Virus record (IMG/VR): IMGVR_UViG_3300009285_000602
Coordinates: 1-29,864 of that record
Source of the DNA: a virus
DNA: 29,864 bases
Strand: one strand, 5' to 3'
This document shows positions 8,009 through 25,403 of the stretch, one piece after another. Within the stretch, counting starts at the first letter, position 1. The number at the start of each line of letters is the position of its first letter. Both the position numbers and the translations under genes were made by a program. Below the pieces are notes generated by a model. That model saw nothing but the letters and a program-made list of their open reading frames with translations. It did no database searches and was not told the origin of the DNA.

Positions 8009-8843
8009 TGGCAGCCTCCGCCATATCGAGTTCCACGAATGCCATTTGGAACGGACGCGGCATAGGCAACTCTTCCGCGATGTTCCAATCGTTGTCCGCT
8101 ACCACCACACCGCCGTCGTGCGTGAATACAAACCGCTCGCCGATCCGGCGTATTTGCTTTACCCACTCGAACTGGTTCAACAGTTTTCTGTCGCCCACTA
8201 CCACGCCGCGCCGCGTGCCGTATATCAAAGTGCCGCCGTCTAGAATGGGTGAGTGAAGCCCCTCATCTGGTACGTTCGCTACCACCTCAAATCCGGTTTG
8301 TCCCGGCACAATCCGCATCACCCAGTGCCGCTTCATGGCCGCCGTGAGAATCCCGCCGTTATGGACAACAGCGGAATTGAAGTGCAGGGAGTCCGGCACG
8401 CAGTAGTCTCGCCCGGATATCACCCGGTCCCGCCACCGGTCTGTCCTATCAAACCACGGGCTTGGTTCACACAACCCGTTCGCGTGCGCCCACCATTCCC
8501 ACACCGTCTCGCCTTGCTCGTTCACAAGCACGAACGCGTCGAGCCCCGCGCTGCATATCAGAATGTTCTCGTCAAACTGGACCGCCGCGTGCGGCCCGTA
8601 AATGAGCGGATGAAACATATCAACGAGACAGGCTTGACCGTCTCGCGTCCATCGCTGAAACCTGCCACGGCCTAGCAGAATCAGGTCATTGTTGTACTCG
8701 CCAATACTCAGAATCTTCCGAGCCCGGCTCGCGGGAGGCACGGGCGGGATAGCGTCATGGTATGTCACGCTGCCTATACCATCCCCTTCCACGCGGACCG
8801 CCTGGTCGAGCGGGTCCTGTAACACGGCCCACATGCTGGTCAT
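8001..8843 (-). CDS. Beta-propeller-like protein, possibly arylsulfotransferase-like
   Basis: A 280-residue protein with repeated beta-strand blocks ending in Trp/Asp turns (ILLGRGRFQRWTRDG, GETVWEWWAHANG, PDSLHFNSAVVHNGGI, RFVFTHDGGVVVADND). The WEWW followed by DSLHFNSAVV resembles the propeller core of bacterial arylsulfotransferase-like proteins, where a His in a similar place is catalytic. No signal peptide is visible, unlike periplasmic ASST. It overlaps the upstream glycosyltransferase gene by 4 nt (ATGA). A structural propeller or a carbohydrate-binding role is equally possible. Confidence 0.5.
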   Translation of the reverse strand: MTSMWAVLQDPLDQAVRVEGDGIGSVTYHDAIPPVPPASRARKILSIGEYNNDLILLGRGRFQRWTRDGQACLVDMFHPLIYGPHAAVQFDENILICSAGLDAFVLVNEQGETVWEWWAHANGLCEPSPWFDRTDRWRDRVISGRDYCVPDSLHFNSAVVHNGGILTAAMKRHWVMRIVPGQTGFEVVANVPDEGLHSPILDGGTLIYGTRRGVVVGDRKLLNQFEWVKQIRRIGERFVFTHDGGVVVADNDWNIAEELPMPRPFQMAFVELDMAEAANE

Positions 8844-11800
8844 TTGAGCGCCCCCCGCAGTTTGCCCACTATAGCCTCTGGCGTAGCGTCAGGCGAGCCA
8901 AACAAAATAGGATGATACAAGCCCTCGGCGAGCGTGTCCGGCGCAACCCAGGCCGTCTGGAACCGTTTATCAAACCCGTGGCTATGCCATATTGCCTCAC
9001 GCATCCAGAACATCACCGTCGGCACTCGGAAATGAGTTGCCATAATCGGGAGGCCGCTGGGGAAACCAACGAATGCGCGACTCTGTTTTATCAGGGCGAG
9101 ACAGTTCGCTACGTCAGTTTTCCCGGCGGCCTCCCAGTAGAATGCCGGGACCGCACCCGGCTTGTGGTCCGCGACGTAAATCGCCCGCGCAAAATCCATG
9201 TCCCATTCCGCCGCTAACATCACCGGCAGGCATCCGGTTTGTTCGCGGAGCAACCGGCCTAGCGCAATCCAATGGTCAGCGGTAAACGCGCCGCCGTTCC
9301 AGTTCGCGTTCGCGCCAATGCTCGACGCATAACAGCATACTAACGTTCCGCCAACTGCCTGCCGGATGCCGTCAGCGTTCGCCAAGGCTGTATCAGGTAA
9401 CCGCACCTCATAATCCCAGTTCATCCGGTATTCCGGGAACGCATCCTCGATACGCACGCCCGATTCGAGCGGGCTGTTCGCGTCGATTAAGAAATCCGTG
9501 TTCGGCGGGATACCGGCATCGCGCCGAATCCATTCACGCTCAGCATAGGGTTTATGCCACTGCCAGCCGAACGCATATTTCGCGGGGTCCACCTGTACCA
9601 CGTCATCAACGAACGGGAGCAACCGCAGGAACTCGATGCTGTAGGTGTGCCGCCAATCTACGTTGACGGCTACCGTTAGCCGTTCGATGTTATGCCGTTT
9701 ACGGAACGACTCCAGGAACAGCGCGATCCAATGGATATCCCCGATGCCCGGCGGGATCGCGACGATCACGGCCTGCGACACGGAGGCCCGCGCCTGAAGT
9801 TCTGCAACCCGTTCCACAACGAGTCCCGGCTCGATGCGTTTATTGCACTCGTGGTCCATTTCGCCACAATGGCAGAACGGTTCCGGGGCTGCCCACGCAC
9901 ACCGGTTAAGGCCCATAACCGGGTCCAGGATAATGTCAGGTTTGGCGCAGCCGCCGAACACGCAGAGCGTTGGCGTTCGTATCGCGATGCCCAAAAGGAG
10001 AAAGAGGCTCGGATACGTAACTATCATGTCAGCCAACTGCGCCAAACCAAACACAGTAATCAAAGGAAGTTCGCCCTGTTCAAAACGAGTGTCGATACCG
10101 GTCACATCCGCCGTGAAAACCTCATTCCCATCACTGACATCAGCGAGTGAGATAACGTGGTACTGTCCCGCTACCGCGTCCACAGCCTCCTGGAAATGTT
10201 CGGGCGCGGGGTTCCGCGACTCGCACGGCCATGCCGCGCGAACGGCAGGCCGGTGTATGAGGCAAATCGGTTTGCCCTGAGTGTCGAGCGCATCGAGCAC
10301 GCGCCGGGCCGCCACCAGCCACTCGCGCTTAACGGGGAACTCGAAAGCGTAAGCGTTGCCGACAGCCGCCCGGCACGCGGACGCTACGGTCCCGCGCGGG
10401 TCATGCCATTGTGTCCGCCACGTTCGCCGGTCAACCGGCTCCGGCGGTTCCGCTTCGAGCGCAATAGGACGCGCCTGCGGAATGTCCCAGTAGAGTTCCG
10501 GGCACGGCGTTAGCACATACACCCGCTCGTATTTCTCCGCCAGATGCCGGACGTAGGGCCGCTGGTGCAGGTTGTCGCCAATGCCCGCGTACCCCTGAAC
10601 TTGGGCCGCCGGATACCTGCACGGCTGCGTCCGCGTACGGAATGAATCAAACGCGCCCAATAACCGCTGGTCATCAATCGCCTTCTGACAGTCGTGGTCT
10701 GGCCGGAGACACTCGCACGTCGGCGCAGGCGCTGCATAGGCGTGCAGGTCCAGCCCCATCTTGTCATCGAGAATGAAATCCGGGCCGATAAGCCCGCCCC
10801 AAACCGTGAACGTGGGACATCGGGCCGCGATGCCCGCCACCATGCCCAGCGTCGGCGTAGTGATCTGCATATCAGCCAGAGACAGCAACCCGAAGTACGC
10901 TTGCAGACTGAGTTCGCCGTGGTCAAAACACACATCGAAGCCGTGTACGTCGCCGTCAAACCACTCTTCGCCCTCAGCTATGTCTGCTACCGACACGAAG
11001 AAATACTGGTCTCGGTAGTGGCCCATCAGATTCTGGAAATAACAGGCCAACGGATTGCGCGCAGGACACGGCCATTCCGTTCGTAGAGTGGGCCGTCGGA
11101 CCACGCAGATAGGCTTTTGGATCTGGATGTCCGCAAGATACTTTTTCGCTTCGGCAATCCACTCAGGCTTGATCGGCAGCGTCATCGCGTTGTCTGGCGA
11201 GTAGTCCGCGAACATCGCGTCGCGCCGTTCCTGATTGCCAGGTCCACCAGCCGTCAACACATAATAAGACGGTCTCGATACCGGAATGCCCGCCGGACGC
11301 GGGGTCCATGTTGACGTGGGATAGGCCGCCGAATGTTTGGTCTGGGTACGAAACGGATTGTCCATCGGCACGAATCGAAGTCCCGGAATGTCGTGATAAA
11401 CAAACGGGCACGGCGTTTGAACATAAACTTCATCATACCGTTTCGTGAGCGCGCGGACCTTGGGCCGCTGTAGCAGATTGTCACCGAACCCTTGCATCCC
11501 TGACACAAATATGCGGGTCGGTTCACGCTGTTTGATTTGCGGCTGACCGCGCAATACTGCCCGCGACGTGCGAAGGGTCCGGCGCACCGCGCCAAGCGCC
11601 GCCGCCAGCCCGTTCAACGCCTGCCCCGGATTCAACAGCGAGACGGACGCGCTGCCGGATTCAAAATCCGTCCGTGTCAATCCCATGCCGTCGTTCGAGT
11701 CGTTGTAGTATGAAAACGCCACGTAGTCATACTGTGACGGCACCGTTTCTTGAAACGTGCTTTCTAACAACCCGCGCGACCAGACAGCCATTGTTGGCAC

Positions 11801-11998
11801 GCGATAGGTTGATGCGATAACATTCCCCACTTCGCCTAGCGGTTCACATACAACCGCAACATCGCATGGTTCTCGGTCCCCTGACCGAAACCGAGCAACG
11901 TTACGCGACCGCGCCTCATGGCCCGCAGCGCGAACGCCACGGGCCACGAGGTCCACGGTCGGTGAACTAGTGTCGCCATACACGAGGAACAGAGCCAC
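8840..11998 (-). CDS. Large protein with three GT9 (heptosyltransferase)-like domains
   Basis: A 1052-residue protein with a GTG start (AGGG about 8 nt upstream), right after the major capsid gene. Residues 1-150 are a separate Rossmann-like region. Domain 1 (162-440) and domain 2 (466-735) are clear duplicates: GMQGFGDNLLQRP versus GYAGIGDNLHQRP, and LLSLADMQITTPTLGM versus LAQLADMIVTYPSLFL. Each is followed by a Cys motif (CECLRPDHDC at 428-437, CHCGEMDHEC at 709-718). Domain 3 (742-1052) starts IPPGIGDIHW and has the GT9-like end DVANCLALIKQSRAFVGFPS then RVPTVMFW. GT9 enzymes are GT-B folds that transfer heptose from ADP-heptose. Acceptor unknown; activity of each domain is unproven. Confidence 0.75.
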   Translation of the reverse strand: MALFLVYGDTSSPTVDLVARGVRAAGHEARSRNVARFRSGDREPCDVAVVCEPLGEVGNVIASTYRVPTMAVWSRGLLESTFQETVPSQYDYVAFSYYNDSNDGMGLTRTDFESGSASVSLLNPGQALNGLAAALGAVRRTLRTSRAVLRGQPQIKQREPTRIFVSGMQGFGDNLLQRPKVRALTKRYDEVYVQTPCPFVYHDIPGLRFVPMDNPFRTQTKHSAAYPTSTWTPRPAGIPVSRPSYYVLTAGGPGNQERRDAMFADYSPDNAMTLPIKPEWIAEAKKYLADIQIQKPICVVRRPTLRTEWPCPARNPLACYFQNLMGHYRDQYFFVSVADIAEGEEWFDGDVHGFDVCFDHGELSLQAYFGLLSLADMQITTPTLGMVAGIAARCPTFTVWGGLIGPDFILDDKMGLDLHAYAAPAPTCECLRPDHDCQKAIDDQRLLGAFDSFRTRTQPCRYPAAQVQGYAGIGDNLHQRPYVRHLAEKYERVYVLTPCPELYWDIPQARPIALEAEPPEPVDRRTWRTQWHDPRGTVASACRAAVGNAYAFEFPVKREWLVAARRVLDALDTQGKPICLIHRPAVRAAWPCESRNPAPEHFQEAVDAVAGQYHVISLADVSDGNEVFTADVTGIDTRFEQGELPLITVFGLAQLADMIVTYPSLFLLLGIAIRTPTLCVFGGCAKPDIILDPVMGLNRCAWAAPEPFCHCGEMDHECNKRIEPGLVVERVAELQARASVSQAVIVAIPPGIGDIHWIALFLESFRKRHNIERLTVAVNVDWRHTYSIEFLRLLPFVDDVVQVDPAKYAFGWQWHKPYAEREWIRRDAGIPPNTDFLIDANSPLESGVRIEDAFPEYRMNWDYEVRLPDTALANADGIRQAVGGTLVCCYASSIGANANWNGGAFTADHWIALGRLLREQTGCLPVMLAAEWDMDFARAIYVADHKPGAVPAFYWEAAGKTDVANCLALIKQSRAFVGFPSGLPIMATHFRVPTVMFWMREAIWHSHGFDKRFQTAWVAPDTLAEGLYHPILFGSPDATPEAIVGKLRGALK

Positions 11999-12023: not shown

Positions 12024-13010
12024 TTAGGTTACGATAATCCGAACGCCAGCACAGTCTTTGTAACTCGCAGCAACTTTGTCCCAGTTGGTTGTCGTGGCTA
12101 CTGCCGCGTCCGTCGGGTTTGCCCCGCCGTTCCCGGTGTCCCACGCAAACCCCTTGACTTCGACCGTGTAGTCGAATTCAAATTGCGAACGCATCACTAA
12201 TTGCTCATTGCCGGATATCAGTTGTGCAAATACCGTGTCCGCATAAGGGTCAACTACGGTAACGGCATCTGACACAAGGCCCAACACGTTATATGTGTCT
12301 GTCCCTGTGCCGTTCGCATCGAGCAATGCACTATTATCCGTCACTAGCACAGGCCGTCCTAACGACGCTGGGGTCCCGCCGTAGATCACTGCGTCCGCGA
12401 TGTTCGTAATCTTGTCGGTAATGGCCTGCTTCACTAAGTCATAATACGGCTTAGAGTGCATAACCCAGCACACGACTTTGCTGGCGGCATCGCCCATTTT
12501 CTGGAGACCGGATGCGAGATGGCCATGAGTAAGTGTAGTGGTACTCTGGAGGTTGCCAGAATACGTGAGGTCCGCGCCGACGTGTTCGATAGCCGCCTCA
12601 ACAGCTAACAGTGCCGCAGTGATTTGGTCGTTGAGCTTATCTTCCTGATATTCACGGCCCATTTTGACCGCGAACGCGCCCTCGTTCTCGCCAATCACTT
12701 TCAGCGCGCCGAGCGCGTTATCGACCGGCCCCCATTTCCGGTTACGTTTCACGCCGATAAACTCGCCTTGAGTTATCGACAATGCGGTCGCAGCCGCCGT
12801 AGCCGTCATGTCCCGGCGTGTCACCGGATTCGACACGCGCTTCCAGAACGCCTGTTTGCTATATTGTCCCAAAGACGCTTTGGAAATCAATCGGATAGCG
12901 CCTGACGATGCGCCGTTGAACAGACTCAGATTCGTGTCGAGAGATTCCAACATTCCGCCTTGGAATTCGTTCTCGTATACTTTCAAGTCGCCTAGTACCG
13001 TAGCTGCCAT
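12024..13010 (-). CDS. Major capsid protein
   Basis: A 328-residue protein directly downstream of the scaffold gene and preceded by AAAGGCGG. The N-terminus (LGDLKVYENEFQGGMLESLDTNLSLFNGASSGAI) followed by YSKQAFWKRV matches a family of phage major capsid proteins of this length with the HK97-type fold. Later features include WVMHSKPYYDLVKQAITDKI and LGRPVLVTDN, typical of the spine helix and A-domain region. With no protease recognised nearby, assembly is probably by a separate scaffold. It would form the icosahedral head. Confidence 0.85.
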   Translation of the reverse strand: MAATVLGDLKVYENEFQGGMLESLDTNLSLFNGASSGAIRLISKASLGQYSKQAFWKRVSNPVTRRDMTATAAATALSITQGEFIGVKRNRKWGPVDNALGALKVIGENEGAFAVKMGREYQEDKLNDQITAALLAVEAAIEHVGADLTYSGNLQSTTTLTHGHLASGLQKMGDAASKVVCWVMHSKPYYDLVKQAITDKITNIADAVIYGGTPASLGRPVLVTDNSALLDANGTGTDTYNVLGLVSDAVTVVDPYADTVFAQLISGNEQLVMRSQFEFDYTVEVKGFAWDTGNGGANPTDAAVATTTNWDKVAASYKDCAGVRIIVT

Positions 13011-13949: not shown

Positions 13950-14284
13950 GCGCTTTCATTTTCGCCCTTACTAGCCGTGAGACAGGAATAATCTATCAGC
14001 GCATGGATAATCTCATGCCACAGCGTTTCCGTTTTGACCTGCGGATCAAGCCGAGTGCAGATAGAAATCTGTGCTGTATCATAATCAATACGCCCGTCCA
14101 CCGGCCTAGCATCGCCATACGCGCCTGGCGATAACACAATGTCCTTTTCGAGAATACGGAAATCGTGCGGGCTAATGTGCACGCGCGGCTGGCAGGCGTA
14201 CCCCTCTGCAATCCACGGATTGTCCCGCAACACGCCCAACACGCCCCGCGCCAGCACGTCAACAATCTTTTCTTCGTGCGTCAT
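13946..14284 (-). CDS. Small HExxH zinc-metallopeptidase-like protein
   Basis: A 112-residue protein with TLWHEIIHALIDYS near the C-terminus (about residues 87-100), a zinc-binding HExxH helix. Upstream is the pattern of a family common in phages: a first helix, a strand with a Pro/His-containing turn (HISPHDFRILEKDIVL) and an acidic loop before a strand (GRIDYDTAQISICTRL). It overlaps the MuF-type gene by 4 nt (ATGA). Its place in the head cluster could suggest a maturation role, but proteins of this family also occur elsewhere in phages and a third zinc ligand is not obvious. Function unproven. Confidence 0.65.
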   Translation of the reverse strand: MTHEEKIVDVLARGVLGVLRDNPWIAEGYACQPRVHISPHDFRILEKDIVLSPGAYGDARPVDGRIDYDTAQISICTRLDPQVKTETLWHEIIHALIDYSCLTASKGENESA

Positions 14285-16068
14285 TCACTCGCTCCCGCTG
14301 CCGCCGCTTCTGCCAATTGCTGTGCGTCCCATTCCTCTTTTCGCTGTTCCGCATACTCGTCCATATCATCCCGAATATCCTCGAACTTAGTGTACGACAC
14401 GCTGCACCGGCAATTGCTTGATACGCATCCGTTGACAATGTATAATGAGCTATCAGATTGGAGGTCATAGACATGCCCACAAAAGTGTCGCAGACGTGTG
14501 AACAGGATACGTGTCGTCGTTATCAAGCCGGAGAACGATTGCAGGATATCGCGGATGTGCTCGGAATTTCCAAACCCTGTATTGAAAATATTCTCCGGCG
14601 CAACAACATCCCCCGAAACAGGTGGCACCAACTCATGCCTATCGAGGATGTTGTCCGCAGATACTCTGCGGGTGAATCCGAATTGTCCCTCAGCAAAACT
14701 CTTGACGTATCCAGGTCTGTGATCCGCAGGATATTGCTGCAAACTCGCATCCCCATTCGCAGCGGTTCGGATGCTAACCGGTTGCGCTTCGCGCGCATGA
14801 CGCCGCAGGAACGCCACGCCCTCGCGGCGAATGCCCACTCCGCCGTCCGTGGCTCCACGCAAAGCGAAGAGCATCGAATGAAGATCGCTAAAACGCGAGA
14901 AATGGAAACCATCGGAAGTGTCCCAATTGAAGATTATCTTGCTGAATGTTTGCGCGGTAACGGGATTGGCGTCATTCAACAAAAAGCCGTTGGGCGCTAC
15001 AATATTGACATTGCCATTACAGAAAGCCGCATCGCCGTGGAGATATTCGGGGGAGGCTGGCACAACAGCGGAAGACATTTGCGGCGATATAGAAAGCGCT
15101 GTGATTACCTGCTCAATAGTGGGTGGCTGCCAGTTATTATCTGGATTGATGCTCGAAGATTCCCCTTGGGTGATGGGGCAATTCAATATCTCATCGGCCT
15201 CGATGAGGCTCTTCGCCGCGGCGAATCCATCAGGCGTCAAGAACATGTGATTCGGGGTAACGGAGATAACGCGCCCATCAAATAGGCCGATATCAACGAT
15301 GTCGCCCTCATAGAATGCCTGCACGCCACATAATATGCCAGGAGCGATAACGCGCGTATCGCCCAAGACGCAGCTCGGATGTGCTGGCGACTGACTGTCC
15401 CCAGACGCGAACGCTTCGTCCACGTCTATCGCCCCTTGTTCCTCATTTCCCCGGCAAATGTCGCATACCCGTTCGTCATCGGTAGCGCGCCACGCCTTCC
15501 ACTTGTCCTCCCGCGCGTGCGCCTCGACGCTGCGCGCTTCGCTCTGCGCGGTTGCCGTCTCGGTAACGGCAATGGTCTCCCGCCGGTCTTTCAGGAGCGA
15601 CCGGTAGAACGTTTCAGCCATGGACTGGACTTCGGCATCGGTCCTGCTTGACCGTTCTAACTCCGCGACATATTTCAGATACTGAGCCTGCCGGTTAGAG
15701 TCCAAGCCCACGACCTGTTCGAGTTGGCGTGCAATAGCATACGGATGTTTACCGTCCGCCATGCCCTGGGCAATGGTCGCGGCCACGCTTTTGAGTTCCG
15801 TTTGGACCAGCCCGCGAATCAGCGTATCGGCTTGGATTCGCGCCGCGTCCGTAGCCATTTGCTGGGCTTTTCGCAGCGCTACAGGACTCGCGTCACCCGT
15901 GATCGCCGCACGATACTGGTCATACAGCGCCGCCTCAATATCCGCCCCGATGCCCTGCGTTGACGCCACAAGCGCGTCAATCCATTCGCTCATCTCGGCA
16001 ACCTGCGCGCGGGCAAATTCAGCCGACAGCAGTTCTGCGGCCAACCCGCGAATCTCGTTGTCCGTCAT
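14281..16068 (-). CDS. MuF-type minor head protein precursor interrupted by an intein
   Basis: A 595-residue ORF downstream of the portal gene. The host protein is residues 1-232 plus 553-595 (275 residues after splicing): an Ala/Glu/Arg helical N-terminus, then the MuF C-terminal signature KWKAWRATDDERVCDICRGNEEQG and, after joining, HPSCRCSVSY. The Cys pairs and His are the conserved zinc-like cluster of SPP1 gp7/Mu gpF proteins, which bind the portal and enter the head. The insertion lies exactly between HPS and CRC. Without splicing the conserved motif would be broken, so splicing is probably needed for function. The frame is intact throughout. Confidence 0.9.
   Translation of the reverse strand: MTDNEIRGLAAELLSAEFARAQVAEMSEWIDALVASTQGIGADIEAALYDQYRAAITGDASPVALRKAQQMATDAARIQADTLIRGLVQTELKSVAATIAQGMADGKHPYAIARQLEQVVGLDSNRQAQYLKYVAELERSSRTDAEVQSMAETFYRSLLKDRRETIAVTETATAQSEARSVEAHAREDKWKAWRATDDERVCDICRGNEEQGAIDVDEAFASGDSQSPAHPSCVLGDTRVIAPGILCGVQAFYEGDIVDIGLFDGRVISVTPNHMFLTPDGFAAAKSLIEADEILNCPITQGESSSINPDNNWQPPTIEQVITALSISPQMSSAVVPASPEYLHGDAAFCNGNVNIVAPNGFLLNDANPVTAQTFSKIIFNWDTSDGFHFSRFSDLHSMLFALRGATDGGVGIRREGVAFLRRHAREAQPVSIRTAANGDASLQQYPADHRPGYVKSFAEGQFGFTRRVSADNILDRHELVPPVSGDVVAPENIFNTGFGNSEHIRDILQSFSGLITTTRILFTRLRHFCGHVYDLQSDSSLYIVNGCVSSNCRCSVSYTKFEDIRDDMDEYAEQRKEEWDAQQLAEAAAAGASE
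14418..14446 (+). promoter_or_regulatory. Promoter for the antisense homing endonuclease
   Basis: TTGATA (14418-14423), a 17-nt spacer and a perfect TATAAT (14441-14446) on the plus strand. Transcription would start near 14453, followed by GGAGG at 14460-14464 and ATG at 14473. The promoter lies within the codons for the intein's blocks F and G, read on the other strand. Confidence 0.75.
14473..15285 (+). CDS. Vsr/EDxHD-type homing endonuclease encoded antisense within the intein
   Basis: A 270-residue protein and the only convincing plus-strand gene. ATG at 14473 has GGAGG 8 nt upstream and a promoter before that. Residues ~5-50 and ~55-95 are two helix-turn-helix units (RLQDIADVLGISKPCIENIL, SELSLSKTLDVSRSVIRRIL). 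A basic linker follows. The C-terminal nuclease core has an early Glu (IEDYLAE, ~153), YNIDIAI (Asp179), IAVEIFGGGWH (Glu190, His197) and RCDYL (Asp211), as in Vsr-like PD-(D/E)XK homing endonucleases such as the I-Bth0305I group. It lies entirely inside the intein coding region. It probably cuts intein-free alleles to spread the intein. Confidence 0.85.
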   Translation: MPTKVSQTCEQDTCRRYQAGERLQDIADVLGISKPCIENILRRNNIPRNRWHQLMPIEDVVRRYSAGESELSLSKTLDVSRSVIRRILLQTRIPIRSGSDANRLRFARMTPQERHALAANAHSAVRGSTQSEEHRMKIAKTREMETIGSVPIEDYLAECLRGNGIGVIQQKAVGRYNIDIAITESRIAVEIFGGGWHNSGRHLRRYRKRCDYLLNSGWLPVIIWIDARRFPLGDGAIQYLIGLDEALRRGESIRRQEHVIRGNGDNAPIK

Positions 16069-16071
16069 TGC

Positions 16072-17577
16072 CTACCCCGCTGCCTCAGCCGGTCGTTGCC
16101 GTTCCACAATTCGCTGCATAGTCGAATCTTTTGTCAACGTGCCAATCGCCGCCTGGCCCAGCGTCATGATCGCTTTTTCCATGACCGGTCCCATGTTTTT
16201 CGCGGCCATGTCCATCATAGCCTGTTGTTCAACAGCTTGTTGTGTCGGCGTCTTGATAGCATTCAACTGCCGCTGCTCGTGCTCCGTGTTGAACGCTTCC
16301 AGTTCCGCCGCCGGGTCCTCAATACTATGCAACAACCGCAACCGCGTTCCGTGCGATACGATGTCCTGCAACGCGCCAATGGACTGCCACTCCTCGAGTT
16401 CGTTTACGGGTATCGAGAAACCAATGTTCATATCATAATCTACGATCTGCGGCAACCCCTGTTTCTCCTGCATCGCGTTGATCAAATCCACACGGCACTT
16501 CATGCACCGCTTGAGATACTGTATCATTGCGTTAGCTGTCTCGTTCATTGGCGTAAACATTAGTTTAAGCGCTATTCCGCTGGTCGCGCCGGTCGCGCCA
16601 GCGATGTTCGCCACGTCAGGAACTTCCATCATCAGATGAATAGCTTCCCTCGTTCGCTTGAGCCGTTCCGTGATTCGGGCAACGTCCGTCTGCCGTGTCA
16701 GGTAGAAAGCGTCCGCATCGCCCGCGCCAGATAACGGGAGCATCCGGCTCTTGTTGATGACGGATTCATGCTGTTTCACCCAGTCCGCGTCATACCCTTT
16801 GATCACAAGCATCGCGTCAACGATCTGACGGATGTCATCACCGCTGGCGCTGTCAATCGAATTCCATTCATCCGTCTGCGACCGCACCGCCGCGCTGATA
16901 AGCGACTCCCGCAGTTCGTTGACGCACCATTCCACAACCGGCACGCGGCCGTAGAAATGTTCTACGGGGTCCTTCGTCAACGTCCAGTTGTTCGGCGATT
17001 TCCCAGACGAAGAGTACTCCGCGATGATCGCATCCGTGTACACGGTCACGATATCAAGCGAGTCCGCGAGCGCCGCGCCCTGATGGATCGTCCCTGCCGG
17101 TATGGTCACCCGGCGGATCGCCGCCACCACATCCTCGTTGCTGTCATAGACCACCGCCCATTCGAGCGGGTCATAGTTCGCTATCTGTATCCCGCCCGCA
17201 TCCGGGTCAAAATAATGGAGCTCAATTCCGCGCCCGTTTATCAGCACGTCCCGCAGGATGTCAACGTCGATGGCGTCAATCATAACCCGCCGCGCGATAT
17301 CCGCGTAGACCTCGATGCCCAGTTTCGCCAGTTCGTCTTCTGCGTTGCGCGCAGTAACTTTATAAGGTTTTCGCGTCATCGCGCCGACATAGCGGTTCAC
17401 TCCGTACCGAGGCCAGTTCGTGACGTTCTCGCTTTTTTTCGAGCCGTCCGCGTACCGTTCGTTCTTGCCGACAATCGTATGTTTACCAGAGTAGTAGCCC
17501 TGGCATTTCGCCATTTCACTGCGGACCATCACCTGCCGGTCCCACAGGTCCAGCGCTTGAGTTATCGAGAGTTCCAT
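16072..17577 (-). CDS. Portal protein (SPP1 gp6-like)
   Basis: A 501-residue protein between the large terminase and the MuF-type gene. The N-terminus (QALDLWDRQVMVRSEMAKCQGYYSGKH) and the following NRYVGAMTRKPYKVTA fit the SPP1 gp6 portal family, as does the LIISAAVRSQTDEWNSIDSAS-type stem region near residue 225. The later helix MNETANAMIQYLKRCMK and the Gln/Glu-rich C-terminus fit the crown. Twelve copies would form the DNA channel at one vertex, bind terminase during packaging and later the adaptor ring. Confidence 0.85.
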   Translation of the reverse strand: MELSITQALDLWDRQVMVRSEMAKCQGYYSGKHTIVGKNERYADGSKKSENVTNWPRYGVNRYVGAMTRKPYKVTARNAEDELAKLGIEVYADIARRVMIDAIDVDILRDVLINGRGIELHYFDPDAGGIQIANYDPLEWAVVYDSNEDVVAAIRRVTIPAGTIHQGAALADSLDIVTVYTDAIIAEYSSSGKSPNNWTLTKDPVEHFYGRVPVVEWCVNELRESLISAAVRSQTDEWNSIDSASGDDIRQIVDAMLVIKGYDADWVKQHESVINKSRMLPLSGAGDADAFYLTRQTDVARITERLKRTREAIHLMMEVPDVANIAGATGATSGIALKLMFTPMNETANAMIQYLKRCMKCRVDLINAMQEKQGLPQIVDYDMNIGFSIPVNELEEWQSIGALQDIVSHGTRLRLLHSIEDPAAELEAFNTEHEQRQLNAIKTPTQQAVEQQAMMDMAAKNMGPVMEKAIMTLGQAAIGTLTKDSTMQRIVERQRPAEAAG

Positions 17578-17587
17578 ATCCGCCTCC

Positions 17588-18913
17588 TCAAAATCCTAAC
17601 GCCGCGCGGTCCATACCCGCGAGATTCGGCTTGTTTCGCAGCAAGTCCGTCATTCCAATCACATACGAGTCTAACCGGTTTGGACTGGCCTCGTTAACCG
17701 CGCCCGTATAACTACACAGTTCCTCTTCGAGTTGCGCGAACGTTCCGATATGATGAATCCGGCGATGCTGGGCTTGGGCCGCGACGTATTCCGCCCTCAC
17801 CATTTTCCCTTTGACGGATGGAATGCCACGGAGCGGAATCGAGTACCGCCCTCGCCCCATCTCCCGAAACGTTGACACGATAGTGTGTTCCACCATCTCG
17901 CCGCCCTGGTTCGTCTCGTAGAGGATTTCTGAGGCGTGCCACTGGTCGAATAGCAAGACGGCTATCCGGGCCCATTCACCGGGCGAACCGTGCAAACTGC
18001 CGTCTGCCAACAGATACCCGTGACCGTCAACACCGAGGCCCGTAACCGTGATGCCCGCCTCGTCTCCCGCCTTCGAGCACGTCGGGTCTACCGTGACAAC
18101 CACCCTCCGCATTTCCGGCGCAGTCAACACACGGGCGGCGTCGATCTCCGCGCGTTTCCACAACGCGCCCGGAATGTCTTCGTCATCCTGCGCCAGTATC
18201 TCATGGCCGTGCGCTTCCGTAGTCATCTCAGCCGCGATATCCGCCAGCGCTTGTTCGCTGATGTACGGGTTCTCGTGGCTCGTGAAGTGGAACGCGGCCC
18301 ACCGGCCCGATGTGTCAGCTGCGGCCCGCTTGTACATCTTGGCGGCGTACCGCGGGTCTGTCGCGCGAGACAGCGCGCGCGACTTCCGGCTCGGCGGCGT
18401 GTAGATGAACACAGCGTCGCCGTCGTTGTCCAGAAGCATTGGCGCGCCAACGTCTTCCCACGCCGTCTCAGACATCAGCTGCAACTCGTCGAGGATCAAC
18501 ACGTCCGCGTAGTCTCCCCGGAGCGTGTCCGCGTTGAACGCGGTTTTTGCGCGAATGCGTTGGCGCGTACCAGGCCGGGTTATCGTGTGCATCCCTTCGT
18601 TTTTGATATACAGTTCCGCTTCGATAGGTTCATGCAACGCGCGTTTCACTTCAAACCAGAACGCATCGACCTGTTCCTGGGTCGGCACCGCGTACAGAAC
18701 GCGGTGGCCGTCCAGAAATGCTTTCACGGCGAGCACCGCGACCCCAACCGTTTTTCCTCCCCGTCGGCCTGCACGTACCACTTTCCGCTTGGCGGGCGAG
18801 TCGATAAATTCCGCCTGCTTCGGATGCGGCTGACGAAGCCGGACCGTGTACACGCGCTCGCCTGCCGGCGGCCGCGTCTCAAGCGCCGCTGACATGTCCG
18901 TCCCCAGTCTCAT
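17588..18913 (-). CDS. terL: Terminase large subunit
   Basis: A 441-residue packaging motor. The ATPase domain has Walker A (RAGRRGGKTVG, about residues 47-57) and Walker B (DVLILDELQLM). The nuclease domain has the first acidic strand (VVVTVDPTCS), a middle motif (EILYETNQGGE) and the C-terminal Asp (SPNRLDSYVIGMTDLL). Together these are the standard TerL order. It overlaps the small subunit gene by 35 nt. A second ATG at 18895 (MSAALETRPP), preceded by GGGGAC, may be the true start. It cuts and threads phage DNA into the prohead at the portal. Confidence 0.95.
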   Translation of the reverse strand: MRLGTDMSAALETRPPAGERVYTVRLRQPHPKQAEFIDSPAKRKVVRAGRRGGKTVGVAVLAVKAFLDGHRVLYAVPTQEQVDAFWFEVKRALHEPIEAELYIKNEGMHTITRPGTRQRIRAKTAFNADTLRGDYADVLILDELQLMSETAWEDVGAPMLLDNDGDAVFIYTPPSRKSRALSRATDPRYAAKMYKRAAADTSGRWAAFHFTSHENPYISEQALADIAAEMTTEAHGHEILAQDDEDIPGALWKRAEIDAARVLTAPEMRRVVVTVDPTCSKAGDEAGITVTGLGVDGHGYLLADGSLHGSPGEWARIAVLLFDQWHASEILYETNQGGEMVEHTIVSTFREMGRGRYSIPLRGIPSVKGKMVRAEYVAAQAQHRRIHHIGTFAQLEEELCSYTGAVNEASPNRLDSYVIGMTDLLRNKPNLAGMDRAALGF

Positions 18914-20233: not shown

Positions 20234-20470
20234 TGCGTGGCCGTGCAAAGCCGCGCCTGTCCCATCCGCTCCGATCCACTCCGTGCTGCGCCCGCGTCGC
20301 CGTGCCGTGCCAATCCCGTCCGTGCCGGTCCCGTCCAATCCGTGCCCTTCCTTGCCTGCGTCACCGTGCAAAGCCCATCCTATCCGATCCCGTCCATTCC
20401 CCTCCGCTCCATGCCACGCCTGCGTCGCCGTGCAGAGCCCATCCTATCCGATCCGTGCCGAGCCGGGCCT
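20234..20470 (-). repeat. Pentamer-periodic (GGNNN) repeat array A
   Basis: No convincing gene; reading frames crossing it arise from the repeat. On the plus strand it is mostly NNNCC pentamers, interrupted by a 13-nt anchor (consensus TGCGTCRCCGTGC) starting at 20234, 20293, 20357 and 20421. Distances are 59, 64 and 64 nt, all 4 modulo 5. It lies between the Cys-rich protein gene and the ParB-like gene and just upstream of the latter's ribosome binding site. On the transcribed-sense strand the series GGN3GGN3GGN3GG fits a two-layer G-quadruplex consensus. Confidence 0.85.
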
Positions 20471-20849
20471 ATCCTGCCGCACGCGGCCCGCGCGGTTTTC
20501 CTTTCGGCCAACCGCGATGTTTACGGCCAGAAGCTACCACTTCGGATGGAACGCATTCCTCCGCAACCGTTACAACACCGTCTGGCCCGCGCGTTATAAT
20601 GTCAATCCCCTCCTCTGGAATAGGGGGTGCGCCAACACTTTCGCGGGCCGCCGTGGCCACTACATCAACTCGCAATTGGCCTTGTTGCGCACCGCGACGG
20701 CATTTAGGACACTGACACGCCACCGGCTTTCCAGTGCCCGCGCCGCCATCCCGCGAGTACGAACGCGCCGCGCACGGCTGACACAGCGTCTGTCCATTCA
20801 CTTCGCACACATCACTCGCTCGTTTACACCACGCACAGATTCCCATCAT
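20469..20849 (-). CDS. Small Cys-rich (zinc-ribbon-like) protein
   Basis: A 126-residue protein from the ATG at 20849, with AAAGGAGA 8 nt upstream and a 4-nt ATGA overlap with the HAD gene. The N-terminal half has four Cys pairs or near pairs: CAWC (about residues 5-8), CQPC and CQCPKC near residue 50, which could hold one or two zinc ions. The C-terminal half is acidic then basic and Pro/Gly-rich (RKHRGWPKGKPRGPRAAG), a tail that may contact nucleic acid. No family recognised. Its last codons touch repeat array A. Confidence 0.6.
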   Translation of the reverse strand: MMGICAWCKRASDVCEVNGQTLCQPCAARSYSRDGGAGTGKPVACQCPKCRRGAQQGQLRVDVVATAARESVGAPPIPEEGIDIITRGPDGVVTVAEECVPSEVVASGRKHRGWPKGKPRGPRAAG

Positions 20850-21193
20850 TTGTTGATTCTCCTTTCGATTTCCGGCCAATCCGGGATCCAAAAAACACTC
20901 GTGTCATCGAGCGATATGTCACACGGCGGTTTGCCAAAAATCAACGCGTCGAATTCGAGGCCCCATTCCCGTAGCTGGTCAGCGGTTTCACGTTTACGAC
21001 AGGCCTCAATTGCCGCCGCGTATCCACAATACCGGTTCATATACCGGGCCGTATGCACAACGACGCGATGCCCGGCACGGCGCGCCCGATTCATAACGTC
21101 AATCGCGTCCTGGATAGGCTTCGCGCGTTCATACGCGCCGCGCGTGTCCGTGCACAGAACACCGTCGATATCCACAACTATCTCTCTAATCAT
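20846..21193 (-). CDS. Small HAD-superfamily phosphatase
   Basis: A 115-residue protein. The ATG at 21193 is chosen because AAGGA lies about 9 nt upstream, formed by the end of the transaldolase gene 5 nt away. HAD motif I is VDIDGVLCTD at the N-terminus (nucleophile and acid/base Asp), motif II is HTAR, and a Lys and acidic pair appear in FGKPPCDISLDD. It is much smaller than GmhB (about 190 residues) and resembles short HAD proteins in capsule and sugar clusters. In this cassette it is the best candidate for removing the C7 phosphate of heptose-1,7-bisphosphate. Substrate is inferred from neighbours only. Confidence 0.75.
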   Translation of the reverse strand: MIREIVVDIDGVLCTDTRGAYERAKPIQDAIDVMNRARRAGHRVVVHTARYMNRYCGYAAAIEACRKRETADQLREWGLEFDALIFGKPPCDISLDDTSVFWIPDWPEIERRINK

Positions 21194-21198
21194 GTCAA

Positions 21199-21939
21199 CT
21201 ATTCCTTCGGCCCACTTAGCCATGCCCGAATATCCTTATCGAACCCTTCCACGCTCGCGTCCGTGCCGGGGTGCATTGCCATGCCATTGATCACAGTTTC
21301 GCTAGCCGTCACGATGTGGGCGCCAGCCATAAACGCCGAGGAACCATCGCGCGCCGTCCGAATACTCCCCGCGATGATTTCTGAATCCGCCCTATCCTGG
21401 TCCAACATGAGTCTCAATTCTCGCACCGCGTCCTCTGGACATTCCGTATCAGGCGTTACGTTCGCCAAATACCTGTCCATCGCACGGCACCAAAACAGGC
21501 TGATATATTTCGCGCGCGCACATTGCGCGAGAATCCCCTGTTCAACGCTGAAAATACACGTCGCGTTCACAGCGAGACCGTCTGCCGTCAACTCAGAAAT
21601 CACGTCCACATACGACACACCGCGGTAAGAAATTGGTATCTTGATAACCGGGCCAAAACACTTTTCCTCAATCAGCACATCGTAAATGTCATGCGCCGCG
21701 TCCACCATTGTGCTTTTATCAAGCGTCAGCACTTCGACACTCAAGGTCTCAAACTTGTCCACGTTCGCATGTTCTCGAATCGCATCACATACGCGCCGAA
21801 GCCCAGCCTCATAAGATTCCGTCTTTACCGTCTTCGCCATCAGCGACGGGTTCGTCGTTACGCCGGAAATTGGTCCGCGCCCACGGTTCAACACGCGGGC
21901 GATCACGTCCGGGTCCGCTGAATCAAGAAACAGTTTCAT
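21199..21939 (-). CDS. talC: Transaldolase (TalC/FSA type)
   Basis: A 246-residue protein with a good AGGAG 6 nt before the ATG. Hallmarks of the small transaldolase/fructose-6-phosphate aldolase group are MKLFLDSADPDVI at the start, GVTTNPSLMAKT (about residues 26-37), the Schiff-base lysine strand VIKIPIS and NATCIFSVEQ. The length is somewhat above the usual ~215-220. Transaldolase interconverts sedoheptulose-7-phosphate plus glyceraldehyde-3-phosphate with erythrose-4-phosphate plus fructose-6-phosphate. TalC is a known auxiliary gene in cyanophages. Here the sugar kinase and adenylyltransferase neighbours suggest it supplies sedoheptulose-7-phosphate. Confidence 0.85.
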   Translation of the reverse strand: MKLFLDSADPDVIARVLNRGRGPISGVTTNPSLMAKTVKTESYEAGLRRVCDAIREHANVDKFETLSVEVLTLDKSTMVDAAHDIYDVLIEEKCFGPVIKIPISYRGVSYVDVISELTADGLAVNATCIFSVEQGILAQCARAKYISLFWCRAMDRYLANVTPDTECPEDAVRELRLMLDQDRADSEIIAGSIRTARDGSSAFMAGAHIVTASETVINGMAMHPGTDASVEGFDKDIRAWLSGPKE

Positions 21940-21951
21940 ATCATTCTCCTT

Positions 21952-21984
21952 TCATTTGTCTACCGTTTCCTCTTTGCTGTTCAT
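21952..21984 (-). CDS. Possible 10-codon leader peptide before the transaldolase
   Basis: Minus-strand ATG at 21984 with AGGAG just upstream, then ten codons (MNSKEETVDK) and a TGA. The start region (AGGAGAATGACATGAA) nearly duplicates that of the transaldolase (AGGAGAATGATATGAA), so it may be a duplicated initiation region or a small regulatory peptide. No other support. Confidence 0.3.
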   Translation of the reverse strand: MNSKEETVDK

Positions 21985-21994
21985 GTCATTCTCC

Positions 21995-22426
21995 TCAGTT
22001 CTCCAGCTTACGCATACGATCCAACGTCTCGCGCGCGTCCTGTGTCCGTCCATCTACAATCAAATACGAATCCCGCGCCGAATCCGGCGTGCTCGTTTCG
22101 ATGATAACACAACCCGATTCGCCAGTAACGCTCTGATGCACCATGCCGCGCGGAATGTTGATCGTATCGCCCGCGCGCAGCGGAACCGCATTGTCACAAG
22201 CGCGACCAACGCGGAATATCACAACCACCCCACCTTCGAGCACATAGTAAGATTCGCTTTTGACCAGATGGTATTCCATGCTACCGACGGCCCACGGCGT
22301 CATCCGCAGGATTTTCGAGGTGTACGCGCCGGTATCAATCACCGTTGTGATACCACCCCAGTACTTTATTTCTTCCGCCGCCCGCGTGGGTTTTGGAACG
22401 TCGCTCTCTCTGAATCCAAATGACAT
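21995..22426 (-). CDS. Cupin, sugar-phosphate isomerase-like
   Basis: A 143-residue single-domain cupin. The first cupin motif appears as MEYHLVKSESYYVLEGGVVV (His, Glu ligands; around residues 50-69) and the second as LRAGDTINIPRGMVHQSV (around 82-99), followed by VIIETSTPDS, a feature of phosphomannose-isomerase-type and sugar-lyase cupins. The start has AAGGA upstream and lies 1 nt after the kinase stop. In a sugar-nucleotide cassette it may isomerise or epimerise a sugar phosphate or ADP-sugar. Substrate unknown. Confidence 0.75.
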   Translation of the reverse strand: MSFGFRESDVPKPTRAAEEIKYWGGITTVIDTGAYTSKILRMTPWAVGSMEYHLVKSESYYVLEGGVVVIFRVGRACDNAVPLRAGDTINIPRGMVHQSVTGESGCVIIETSTPDSARDSYLIVDGRTQDARETLDRMRKLEN

Positions 22427-22427
22427 A

Positions 22428-23297
22428 TCACACCATCCTTTCTAGGAAATCCCCTAGTGTTGGCGGGTTCGGCCCGCGCGTCAGACACGCAAGGCCAGCC
22501 CATACGTTTGCCATTCTCACCGCCTTATCTACACCCAACGAGTTCCATGTTGCCGCTAACATCGCGATAAACGCATCGCCAGCGCCACAGGTATCTACCG
22601 CTCCATCACCTAACTCAATCGCCGCGACGTGCTGCGTGCCTGCATCAGTACACACATCCGCACCGAGCGCGCCGCGTGTCACTACGACCGCCGACCGCGC
22701 GCGCAGGACTTGCACGCGCCCTAGCCGGTCAATAACGTCGCGCGCTTCTCTCTCGTTCAACACAAACACGTCCGCGCCCGTGTACCACTCATGGTTGCCC
22801 GCGTTCTGGCTCATTTGCGACGCGACAAACAAAGTTTTGTTTTGCACATGACATTCCCCCACAATCCGCTCCGCTAGTGGCCGCGTTAGCAAGCCGTGCC
22901 GATAGTCGGCCACGATCACTACATCAGCCTCAGTAATACTATCAGTCAACCGTGCGTCAACGCATCGCTCACGTTCCGCGTCATCAAGAGCGCCTGTCCA
23001 ATCCTCGTCGATCTGGAGTAGCTTGTATCCGTCCACCCAGTATCGCCGCTTAATCATGCAGCAGTCGCGCGGCGTCGTTAGAAACTTGTGTTGAACACCG
23101 AGCGCTTCCAAGTTTCGCACAACAAGAGCCGCGCCGCCGAGCGTTGATTCTCGGCGTTCATACCGGGCGACAATGGTAGGCGTCTCCGCAGATATCCCTG
23201 CGGCTGTCGCGTAAATCGCCTCATCGCCTATGGCGTCGCCGACGACCACGATACGGACGCTTGGAAACACCTGTGCAATATCATACCCGTTTGTCAT
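22428..23297 (-). CDS. PfkB-family sugar kinase, HldE N-domain-like
   Basis: A 289-residue kinase. The ATG at 23297 has AGGGAG 8 nt upstream; the frame extends 9 codons further. It begins like heptose-7-phosphate kinases: VVVGDAIGDEAIYATAAGIS, then AETPTIVARYERRESTLGGA and KRRYWVDGYKLLQIDED. The PfkB signature DTCGAGDAFIA holds the catalytic Asp (about residues 235-245). Compared with HldE about 25 residues are missing before KRRYW. HldE-N phosphorylates C1 of D-glycero-D-manno-heptose-7-phosphate. It overlaps the upstream fusion gene by 17 nt. The heptose substrate is inferred from similarity and partners. Confidence 0.8.
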   Translation of the reverse strand: MTNGYDIAQVFPSVRIVVVGDAIGDEAIYATAAGISAETPTIVARYERRESTLGGAALVVRNLEALGVQHKFLTTPRDCCMIKRRYWVDGYKLLQIDEDWTGALDDAERERCVDARLTDSITEADVVIVADYRHGLLTRPLAERIVGECHVQNKTLFVASQMSQNAGNHEWYTGADVFVLNEREARDVIDRLGRVQVLRARSAVVVTRGALGADVCTDAGTQHVAAIELGDGAVDTCGAGDAFIAMLAATWNSLGVDKAVRMANVWAGLACLTRGPNPPTLGDFLERMV

Positions 23298-24153
23298 GGT
23301 CAACTCCCTTCCTGATTTGCTCAATCACACCCGTCGTACTTCGACCCTCAACCAAGGGAAATAACACGATTCGCACCGCGTCCGGCACGTTATCCCGCTG
23401 CCGTACCTGGGCCTCCGTCCATTCACCTCCTTTGACATACACATTCGGACGCACACTAGTCAACAGGGCTGTCGGAGATTGCTCACCAAACACAATCACC
23501 TCGTCTACATATCGTAATGATTCAAGCAATAGCCTCCGGTCCCGTTCGTTGTTAATGGGCCGGCACGGCCCCTTGATTGCGCGCACGGATTCGTCGTTAT
23601 TGATTCCCACCACCAAATACGAACCGAGACATTTCGCGAACTGCAACAGCCGGAGGTGGCCTTCATGCAGAATGTCGTAACAGCCCGTGGCGAGTACCGT
23701 TTTTCCGCACGGGTCCGCGTCAACGCGCCGGATGCGTTTTACATGACGACCCGCGCCGAAGTCCGCCGCGAGCCACGCCATTACGATATCCTTTATCTCT
23801 AGGAAATGGTTGTACCACGCCCCAAGACATAGGATGTTCGCATCGTTATGCTCACGGGACAGTTCTGCGCCACGTACCGACTGCACCTGAACGGCTCGCG
23901 CGCCTACCGTTTTGTTGGCGACAATACACATCCCTGCGCCCGTGCCACAGATTAGGATTCCCCGATCCGCGCCACCTGATACAACGATTTGCGCGACCTG
24001 CCGGGCATAGTCCACGTAGTCAACCCGTTCGCCCTTGCGGAACGGGCCGATGTCGATAGTCCGCACGTCCGGCATTGCCGCTAACGCGCTGACCAGAACG
24101 CTTTTCGCGGCATACCCATTATGGTCCGATGCCAAAACAATCAGCATTGCCAT
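23281..24153 (-). CDS. RpiB-like isomerase fused to HldE C-domain-like adenylyltransferase
   Basis: A 290-residue fusion. Residues 1-144 are RpiB/LacAB-like: LASDHNGYAAK (Asp10, His11), VDYVDYARQVA, ILICGTGAGMCIVANK (Cys69) and REHNDANILCLGAW. Residues 151-281 match the HldE adenylyltransferase domain: TGCYDILHEGHLRLL (HxGH), VVGINNDESVRAIKG, CRPINNERDR, RPNVYVKGGEW and EGRSTTGVIEQI. In E. coli this domain is fused to the kinase and makes ADP-heptose from heptose-1-phosphate. Here the kinase is the next gene and the fusion partner is an isomerase. The RpiB part might replace GmhA, but ribose-5-phosphate isomerase activity is equally possible. AAGGA lies 6 nt before the ATG. Confidence 0.88.
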   Translation of the reverse strand: MAMLIVLASDHNGYAAKSVLVSALAAMPDVRTIDIGPFRKGERVDYVDYARQVAQIVVSGGADRGILICGTGAGMCIVANKTVGARAVQVQSVRGAELSREHNDANILCLGAWYNHFLEIKDIVMAWLAADFGAGRHVKRIRRVDADPCGKTVLATGCYDILHEGHLRLLQFAKCLGSYLVVGINNDESVRAIKGPCRPINNERDRRLLLESLRYVDEVIVFGEQSPTALLTSVRPNVYVKGGEWTEAQVRQRDNVPDAVRIVLFPLVEGRSTTGVIEQIRKGVDHDKRV

Positions 24154-24995: not shown

Positions 24996-25403
24996 GTCCT
25001 GTCCTATCCGAATCATACCGTGCCTGCGTCACCGTGCCTTGCCGGTCCCTTCCGATCCGGTCCGCTCCCATCCGTACCTGCGTCGCCGTGCAGAGCCCTG
25101 CCTGGCCCCTCCGATCCGATCCGATCCACGCCTGCGTCACCGTGCCTTGCCGGTCCCTTCCGATCCGCTCCGCTCCGCTCCGTACCTGCGTCACCGTGCA
25201 GAGCCCTGCCTGGCCCCTCCGATCCCATCCGATCCACGCCTGCGTCACCGTGCCCGGCCCTGCCGCTCCGATCCGATCCATTCCACTCCGTTCCGTGCCT
25301 GCGTCACAGTGCAGGGCCTTGCCCATCCGATCCATTCCCGTCCCAGCCAGGCCTGGCCGCGCCTCTCCTATCCCTTCCGCTCCATGCCTGCGTCGCCGTG
25401 CAA
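24996..25403 (-). repeat. Pentamer-periodic (GGNNN) repeat array D
   Basis: The largest array, in a 450-nt gap without a convincing gene. Anchors (TGCGTCRCCGTGC, one with CAGTGC) start at 25025, 25079, 25133, 25187, 25241, 25300 and 25389. Spacings are 54, 54, 54, 54, 59 and 89 nt, all 4 modulo 5; between anchors the plus strand is NNNCC pentamers, often GATCC or GCTCC. Units 1+2 (25025-25132) and 3+4 (25133-25240) are a 108-bp tandem duplication with about five differences. ORFs crossing it are by-products of its composition. Confidence 0.9.

Follow-up and report, generated by a model that had tools for sequence, protein, structure and literature searches.

A MuF Intein of Phages with a Probable Homing Endonuclease Gene on the Strand Opposite Its Coding Sequence

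The MuF Locus and Its Genomic Context

The window analyzed here (the whole 29,864-nucleotide stretch of IMG/VR virus record IMGVR_UViG_3300009285_000602) is a tailed-phage sequence with minus-strand genes for the terminase (17588–18913), portal (16072–17577), major head protein (12024–13010), and tape measure (2466–4298). Between the portal and major head protein genes lies a continuous minus-strand ORF of 595 aa (14281–16068) encoding a MuF-type head morphogenesis precursor, which consists of an N-extein (15373–16068), an intein of 320 aa (14413–15372; MuF residues 233–552), and a C-extein (14281–14412), all on the minus strand. Residues 94–233 of the precursor matched Pfam Phage_Mu_F (E = 1.4e-6), and a match to the head protein family phrog_15127 (E = 6.3e-30) spanned the intein. 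Within the intein coding sequence, on the plus strand, lies a gene (14473–15285; 270 aa plus stop) for a putative homing endonuclease (HEN). An intein-bearing MuF in Salmonella phage NBSal007 is annotated as an NAD+-asparagine ADP-ribosyltransferase.

No tRNA or Rfam elements were found in the window. A sugar-phosphate cassette (20846–24153) encodes a HAD-like hydrolase, a transaldolase, a cupin, a PfkB kinase, and an RpiB-cytidylyltransferase fusion, and resembles a pathway of the ADP-heptose type. Adjoining the head genes, a 1052-residue ORF (8840–11998) had no Pfam match; by eye, segments resembling family 9 glycosyltransferases recur in it. Gene-poor parts of the window carry tandem repeats with units of 54/108 bp and 15 bp (25018–25338 and 20300–20336), and two plus-strand ORFs opposite the portal and terminase genes (16768–17697, 309 aa; 17990–18892, 300 aa) are probably codon-bias shadows.

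The Intein and the Antisense Gene

The intein begins with Cys1, preceded by AHPS, and ends with Asn320, followed by CRC, the first residue of which is Cys+1. Block B (TPNHMFLTPDG, residues 39–49; 15226–15258, minus strand) is overlapped by the C-terminal region of HEN. A motif of the form P...EDFHGDG, present in the window as PASPEYLHGDA (residues 105–115; 15028–15060, minus strand), is antisense to the HEN catalytic motif. Block F (GHVYDLQSDSSLY, residues 299–311; 14440–14478, minus strand) was placed from alignments and showed intein-level constraint in the column test described below, and block G (VNGCVSSN, residues 313–320; 14413–14436, minus strand) ends with an Asn320 that is invariant in the alignments. 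Among related inteins, Cys1 was present in 122 of 124 and the terminal Asn in all 124, frequencies that are partly due to the construction of the profile search; among the 184 distinct full-length inteins collected in total, CxC begins the C-extein in 150 and HPx precedes the intein in 122. The window intein alone scored weakly against the Intein_splicing family PF14890 (E = 0.08), and a direct search of the window with PF14890 misses the intein, which reflects a limit of sensitivity and not absence; 34 of 36 aligned inteins matched this family (best E = 3.5e-14).

The AlphaFold2 model of the intein is confident at residues ~1–65, 85–130, and 285–320, while pLDDT is mostly <50 for residues 134–266. 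The model has a HINT fold, matching the Mtu RecA mini-intein with Z = 13.0 (rmsd 1.6 over 106 residues), and its top 50 structure matches are inteins and hedgehog domains. The layout of the intein and HEN models thus suggests two folded intein ends joined by a disordered linker (residues ~134–280; 14533–14973, minus strand), which is the antisense reading of the HEN helix-turn-helix and middle regions; the HEN nuclease core lies opposite the EDFHGDG region.

The HEN frame is open upstream to a TTG at 14458, and the ATG at 14473 is the likely start. Two helix-turn-helix units (model residues ~7–43 and ~57–90; 14491–14742, plus strand) correspond to HTH_23 and HTH_58, and a nuclease core follows with E153, YN-x-D179, and E190-IFGGGW-H197 in the 270-aa numbering (14929–15063, plus strand). 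In Pfam, the frame matched REase_MTES_1575 (E = 2.5e-7) and HTH_23 (E = 2.3e-6), while Vsr and DUF559 scored weakly; the helix-turn-helix units are similar to the structure of a CRISPR-repeat-binding protein (2lvs; E = 3.4e-7). Across 85 sequences, N177, D179, and E190 were invariant, and E153 and H197 were conserved in at least 90%; no counterpart of the final Asp found in Vsr-type active sites could be recognized in the alignment. The AlphaFold2 model of HEN is confident throughout (mean pLDDT 93.7) and resembles Vsr (1cw0; Z = 11.2, rmsd 2.7 over 116 residues), the endonuclease-like protein 3hrl (Z = 10.6), and I-Bth0305I (3r3p; Z = 9.9, rmsd 3.1 over 96 residues; profile match E = 0.006); Foldseek assigned the Vsr-type fold with probability 1.00. 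Matches of the HEN model or profile to mitoribosome and stathmin PDB entries were dropped, as they likely reflect chance or helical similarity. A free-standing relative of the HEN core (E = 4e-10) is located between tRNA genes in Rhizobium phage RHph_TM39 (1555–2097), where it is annotated as a homing endonuclease; it may serve as an outgroup.

A sequence-only reading of this DNA had placed an intein with blocks A, B, F, and G at 14413–15372 in a continuous minus-strand ORF, inserted at an HPS/CRC site of a MuF-type protein, and had described a 270-residue plus-strand ORF wholly inside it. Re-examination of the ORF and its translation gave the same coordinates; the AHPS/CRC flanks and the Pfam MuF domain in the extein agree with the proposed insertion site, the blocks are conserved across relatives together with the terminal Asn and Cys+1, and the plus-strand ORF is unbroken (14458–15285), with 270 aa from the ATG. 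Its two helix-turn-helix units were recovered as the HTH_23 and HTH_58 domains, and the Vsr/EDxHD-like core that it had proposed is supported at the level of the fold by the matches to Vsr and I-Bth0305I; of the EDxHD-type catalytic residues, E153, D179, E190, and H197 are conserved, while the last Asp of Vsr was not seen. Endonuclease codons do run under those of blocks B and F, as had been noted: the C-terminal region of HEN overlaps block B, and its start lies opposite the block F His. This placement of the start, the exact register of the codons, the internal promoter and Shine-Dalgarno site, and the broad occurrence among cultured phages go beyond what that reading had anticipated.

Selection on the Two Strands

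ORF length alone is no proof of a HEN gene, because the window has further plus-strand ORFs (300, 309, and 417 aa) opposite or near genes. Stop and resampling tests were based on 94 non-redundant loci, with expectations drawn from the codon usage of each locus itself. The HEN frame contained no antisense-stop codons (TTA, CTA, or TCA) in the 94 loci (519 expected), and the intein frame under HEN likewise contained none (686 expected). Stops were absent from all 25,943 codons of the HEN frame, as compared to 20.2 per 1000 when the strand opposite the N-exteins of these genes was read in the same register; the other two frames in the overlap presented 28.8 and 62.0 stops per 1000 codons. For the resampling, one protein was kept and its synonymous codons were redrawn from own-locus usage without creating stops (20 resamples per locus). 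When the HEN protein was kept, the intein-strand profile score fell from 232 to 124 bits; when the intein protein was kept, the HEN profile score fell from 292 to 91 bits. In both directions, the observed score was above every one of the 20 resamples in 94 of 94 loci, and the same held for 58 of 58 loci outside the profile training set.

The column test identified intein constraint beyond the HEN shadow at block B, the EDFHGDG motif, and block F. In block B, T39, N41, H42, T46, and G49 were 97–100% conserved, far above the shadow, and in the EDFHGDG region H112, G113, and D114 were 91–97% conserved; the Val codon opposite H112 is GTG in 87 of 94 loci. Across linker residues ~135–280, intein identity was 0.167, as compared to 0.160 for the HEN shadow, while HEN itself is constrained there. 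In the overlap, a comparison of 22 independent close pairs showed that the most favoured changes were those silent in both proteins and that changes altering both were depleted; in the last 20 intein residues, which lie beyond HEN, the close pairs presented 89 intein-synonymous changes as compared to 2 of the opposite class. The resampling shows that selection acts on both proteins, namely on the whole of HEN and on the splicing parts of the intein; the column test and the close pairs agree, with both proteins constrained in the overlap and the intein alone outside HEN. The ~145 residues in the middle of the intein amount to no more than a stop-free linker that is predicted to be disordered. 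A codon-level test on both strands in related phages, which the sequence-only reading had proposed, thus gave dual constraint in the overlap; its view that both strands of ~810 bp encode functional protein stands for HEN throughout and for intein residues ~1–130 and ~285–320, which are selected or confidently folded, and does not stand for residues ~134–280, the linker.

Expression Signals of the Antisense Gene

A sigma70-like promoter was predicted on the plus strand (TTGATA-17-TATAAT; 14418–14446), with 11 of 12 consensus bases, inside the 3′ coding end of the intein and placed to drive HEN; a Shine-Dalgarno sequence (GGAGG; 14460–14464, plus strand), antisense to block F codons, is located 8 nt before the ATG. 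The complement of the block F His codon provides the HEN start, which is ATG, GTG, or TTG in 76 of 83 placeable loci. A Shine-Dalgarno core was found 4–11 nt upstream of the start in 65 of 76 loci, as compared to 16.8 expected when synonymous intein codons were redrawn (maximum 25 in 200 draws), and the block F Leu codon was CTC in 65 of 75 loci (18 expected). Of the 64 loci with enough sequence, 56 had a −10 element matching at least 5 of 6 bases, as compared to 21.6 expected; 30 had a perfect TATAAT (4.1 expected), and 21 had an extended −10 (3.6 expected). Most of these elements occupy either of two fixed positions within the intein 3′ end. On the strand opposite intein blocks F and G, the HEN start, its Shine-Dalgarno site, and the promoter signals are conserved.

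The host-type promoter suggests that HEN may be expressed early; the endonuclease-specific promoters of phage T4 are middle or late, not early (PMC2988022). At the commoner of the two promoter positions, the −35 element would fall in the C-extein, which is half of the presumed target, and one may speculate that HEN represses its own expression by analogy with I-TevI, for which self-repression has been described (PMC2988022).

Distribution and Annotation

Searching virus contigs with the nuclease yielded 48 loci, all 48 with an uninterrupted intein frame on the opposite strand; one of them (L036) had appeared intein-less by tblastn, an impression that was overturned when its translation revealed the intein. 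A search with the intein alignment yielded 80 loci, all 80 with HEN opposite, and two bacterial genomes (Ornatilinea and Micromonospora) likewise carry the intein with HEN opposite. Using the whole MuF-intein protein as query for related loci gave no match, because the exteins diverge fast. Two loci recovered with a mini-intein query (L255 and L256) were set aside as belonging to another intein family.

A scan for the intein-only motif EDFHGDG identified 109 inteins, 108 with an antisense HEN and one lacking it; the 108 comprise 100 full-length single-frame HENs, seven cut by contig ends, and one match over two ORFs. No HEN frame with internal stops was found in this motif-based set of 109, the partial ones being due to contig ends or the two-ORF match. 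A plus-strand frame routinely broken while the intein stays intact, which the sequence-only reading had named as contrary to it, was thus looked for and not seen; among all loci, which were found by sequence search, one full (L171) and one partial (Rhodococcus phage REQ3, L278) loss of HEN occurred, and HEN-less or broken versions are under-sampled because of this mode of recovery. In every locus measured, the intein and HEN share the same register, with codons exactly back to back. HEN was on the strand opposite the intein in every locus examined, never in the intein's own frame, and the intein was a single uninterrupted ORF in all full-length loci, its halves never in separate ORFs. Sequenced phages with HEN include 62 Salmonella phage records as well as Gordonia, Pseudomonas, Vibrio, Klebsiella, Acinetobacter, Aggregatibacter, and Mycobacterium phages.

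Mobility and Decay

The joined extein DNA of Salmonella phage PK2 matched 334 phage records. In the intein-free Jerseyvirus relatives SETP13, SE2, and f18SE, a single 1044-bp aligned piece crosses the joined site, and the MuF alleles of PK2, SGPC, and Jersey exceed the intein-free alleles by 816 bp, an exact presence/absence difference. An intein-free MuF whose alignment fails to resume at the +1 Cys, also named beforehand as a contrary case, was sought as well; the intein-free Jerseyvirus alleles align straight through. The inteins of E. coli phage Snoke (Kagunavirus) and Salmonella phage PK2 (Jerseyvirus) are 95.6% identical, as compared to 66% and 78% identity in the flanks, while Snoke and E. 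coli phage vB-Eco-KMB36 (KMB36) have flanks that are 91% and 87% identical and inteins that are 50% identical. The element has thus moved between phage genera, and these identities form the pattern that would be expected from repeated homing into one site.

In L171, HEN and the linker are gone and a 161-residue mini-intein with EDFHGDG is kept in MuF; the antisense frame contains stops, CTG occupies the position of the HEN start, and there is no TATAAT. In phage REQ3, where MuF is on the minus strand, the helix-turn-helix half of HEN is lost. The REQ3 intein seems to begin with Ala instead of Cys (HPN/AVLEGS, the slash marking the junction), possibly reflecting decay or an alternative splicing class.

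Interpretation and Alternative Explanations

The locus is very probably a mobile intein in a phage MuF gene whose homing endonuclease is a separate antisense gene within the intein coding sequence. Computational support covers intact, selected frames, their fixed register, start, Shine-Dalgarno, and promoter signals, the folds of both proteins, presence/absence polymorphism, and transfer between genera; from these we infer splicing, site-specific cleavage, promoter activity, and a timing benefit of a HEN untied from late structural expression. MuF mRNA would be translated through the entire intein, which would fold from its ends (residues ~1–130 and ~285–320) with the disordered linker between them and splice out. 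HEN would be transcribed in the opposite direction from its own sigma70-like promoter, yielding a free Vsr-fold protein with helix-turn-helix DNA-binding units that may recognize and cut the uninterrupted MuF site of a co-infecting phage; repair would then copy the intein together with the antisense HEN gene. MuF is a structural and presumably late protein, and an in-frame endonuclease would therefore be late too; an antisense HEN with its own host-type promoter would escape this schedule. It is also possible that HEN is a nicking enzyme or has an off-site target.

The plus-strand ORF might instead be a codon-bias shadow opposite a coding gene, a reading to which the other long antisense ORFs (300–417 aa) in the window lend some plausibility. 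The resampling and stop tests have already refuted it, and given the nuclease and helix-turn-helix domains, the confidently modelled fold, the lack of any stop across 94 divergent loci, and enriched start, Shine-Dalgarno, and promoter signals, its probability is practically nil. It is very improbable, too, that the minus-strand insert is not a splicing intein but an inserted endonuclease gene whose read-through is tolerated: although the window intein is weak in Pfam and its middle ~145 residues are unconstrained, blocks A, B, F, and G are conserved with the terminal Asn and Cys+1, the intein is constrained beyond the HEN shadow, its model has the Hint fold (Z = 13.0), and a mini-intein without HEN has been retained in MuF. 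Another reading is that the middle region of the intein is a functional domain as well, which would make the whole ~810 bp dual-functional. Weak residual constraint points that way, as HEN-synonymous changes in the close pairs were slightly poorer in intein-nonsynonymous ones, but with pLDDT mostly <50, identity at the level of the HEN shadow (0.167 vs. 0.160), and deletion of the region in L171, we consider a functional middle quite unlikely.

Both proteins could also be real without the antisense protein driving the homing of this intein, in which case HEN might act as a regulator, as a nickase, or as an endonuclease on another locus. Its Vsr relatives nick DNA at mismatches, its alignment does not show the last Asp typical of Vsr active sites, HEN has helix-turn-helix units, and its cleavage is predicted only. 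Against this, its catalytic residues are invariant or nearly so, fold and profile searches both list the homing endonuclease I-Bth0305I among their top matches, and HEN is tied to an intein that is polymorphic, moves horizontally, and occupies one exact site; we regard a role unrelated to homing as unlikely. Within the preferred reading of a mobile intein with an antisense homing endonuclease gene, we have moderate confidence in a more specific proposal, namely a self-contained bidirectional mobile gene, in which block G would double as promoter, block F as ribosome binding site and start, and the strand opposite block B and EDFHGDG as nuclease core, with the homing enzyme timed independently of the late capsid gene and possibly repressing itself via the half-site beside its promoter. 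The register makes it possible to design HEN-null mutations that have no or a mild effect on the intein, as well as promoter mutations that leave the intein protein unchanged, so that the hypothesis is directly testable.

Relation to Known Systems

As in canonical inteins, the splicing domain described here is located in a conserved gene, with the homing endonuclease between the N- and C-terminal splicing halves; in canonical inteins, however, the known endonucleases are made in frame, fused to the intein (PMC3943268), while here the endonuclease is a separate gene on the opposite strand. Like HEN, I-Bth0305I (EDxHD/Vsr-type), which is encoded by a group I intron, combines a Vsr-like nuclease fold with extra DNA-binding units, but the HEN gene is antisense inside an intein, and its EIFGGGWH core is placed by Pfam in MTES_1575. 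Dassa et al. in 2009 reportedly described split inteins with a free-standing Vsr-like endonuclease gene between the halves; in those systems the intein is halved and the endonuclease has its own gene, whereas here one continuous intein ORF runs through HEN, which is on the other strand. Homing genes on the strand opposite the host element, with their own expression, have been described for the Didymium L2066 and S956 rDNA group I introns (PMC9548176), which share with HEN the opposite strand and separate expression; because the host element there is a non-coding ribozyme intron, no two protein-coding frames overlap. T4 segD, a free-standing homing gene, is transcribed against capsid genes 23 and 24 (PMC2988022); it opposes head genes as HEN does but is intergenic, with no overlap and no intein.

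Inteins and Vsr-like homing nucleases are already known, as are group I introns with antisense homing genes; we found no report of an antisense endonuclease in an intein in the open-licence literature searched. In the present arrangement, an intein would carry its homing enzyme in a new manner, with expression apart from the host gene. The locus also documents unusually well how two folded proteins that are unrelated to each other are kept by selection on opposite strands, with codons back to back, in phages of very diverse hosts, and antisense gene overlap can be studied in it as in a natural testbed. For the ancestral aminoacyl-tRNA synthetases, the Rodin-Ohno hypothesis proposes that two enzymes were encoded on opposite strands (PMC10890426).

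Annotators have been advised to use extreme caution with embedded genes (PMC8785237). The present analysis exposes a missed gene in well-known cultured phages, including Jerseyvirus, Aaphi23, and Gordonia phages. The MuF inteins of Snoke (MK931441) and vB-Eco-KMB36 (OR525703) belong to the same family, occupy the same site, and are annotated as inteins, while the antisense endonuclease in these records is without annotation even though its frame is intact. HEN likewise lacks annotation in the other phage records examined, with the exception of PK2, where two nameless nested ORFs are given.
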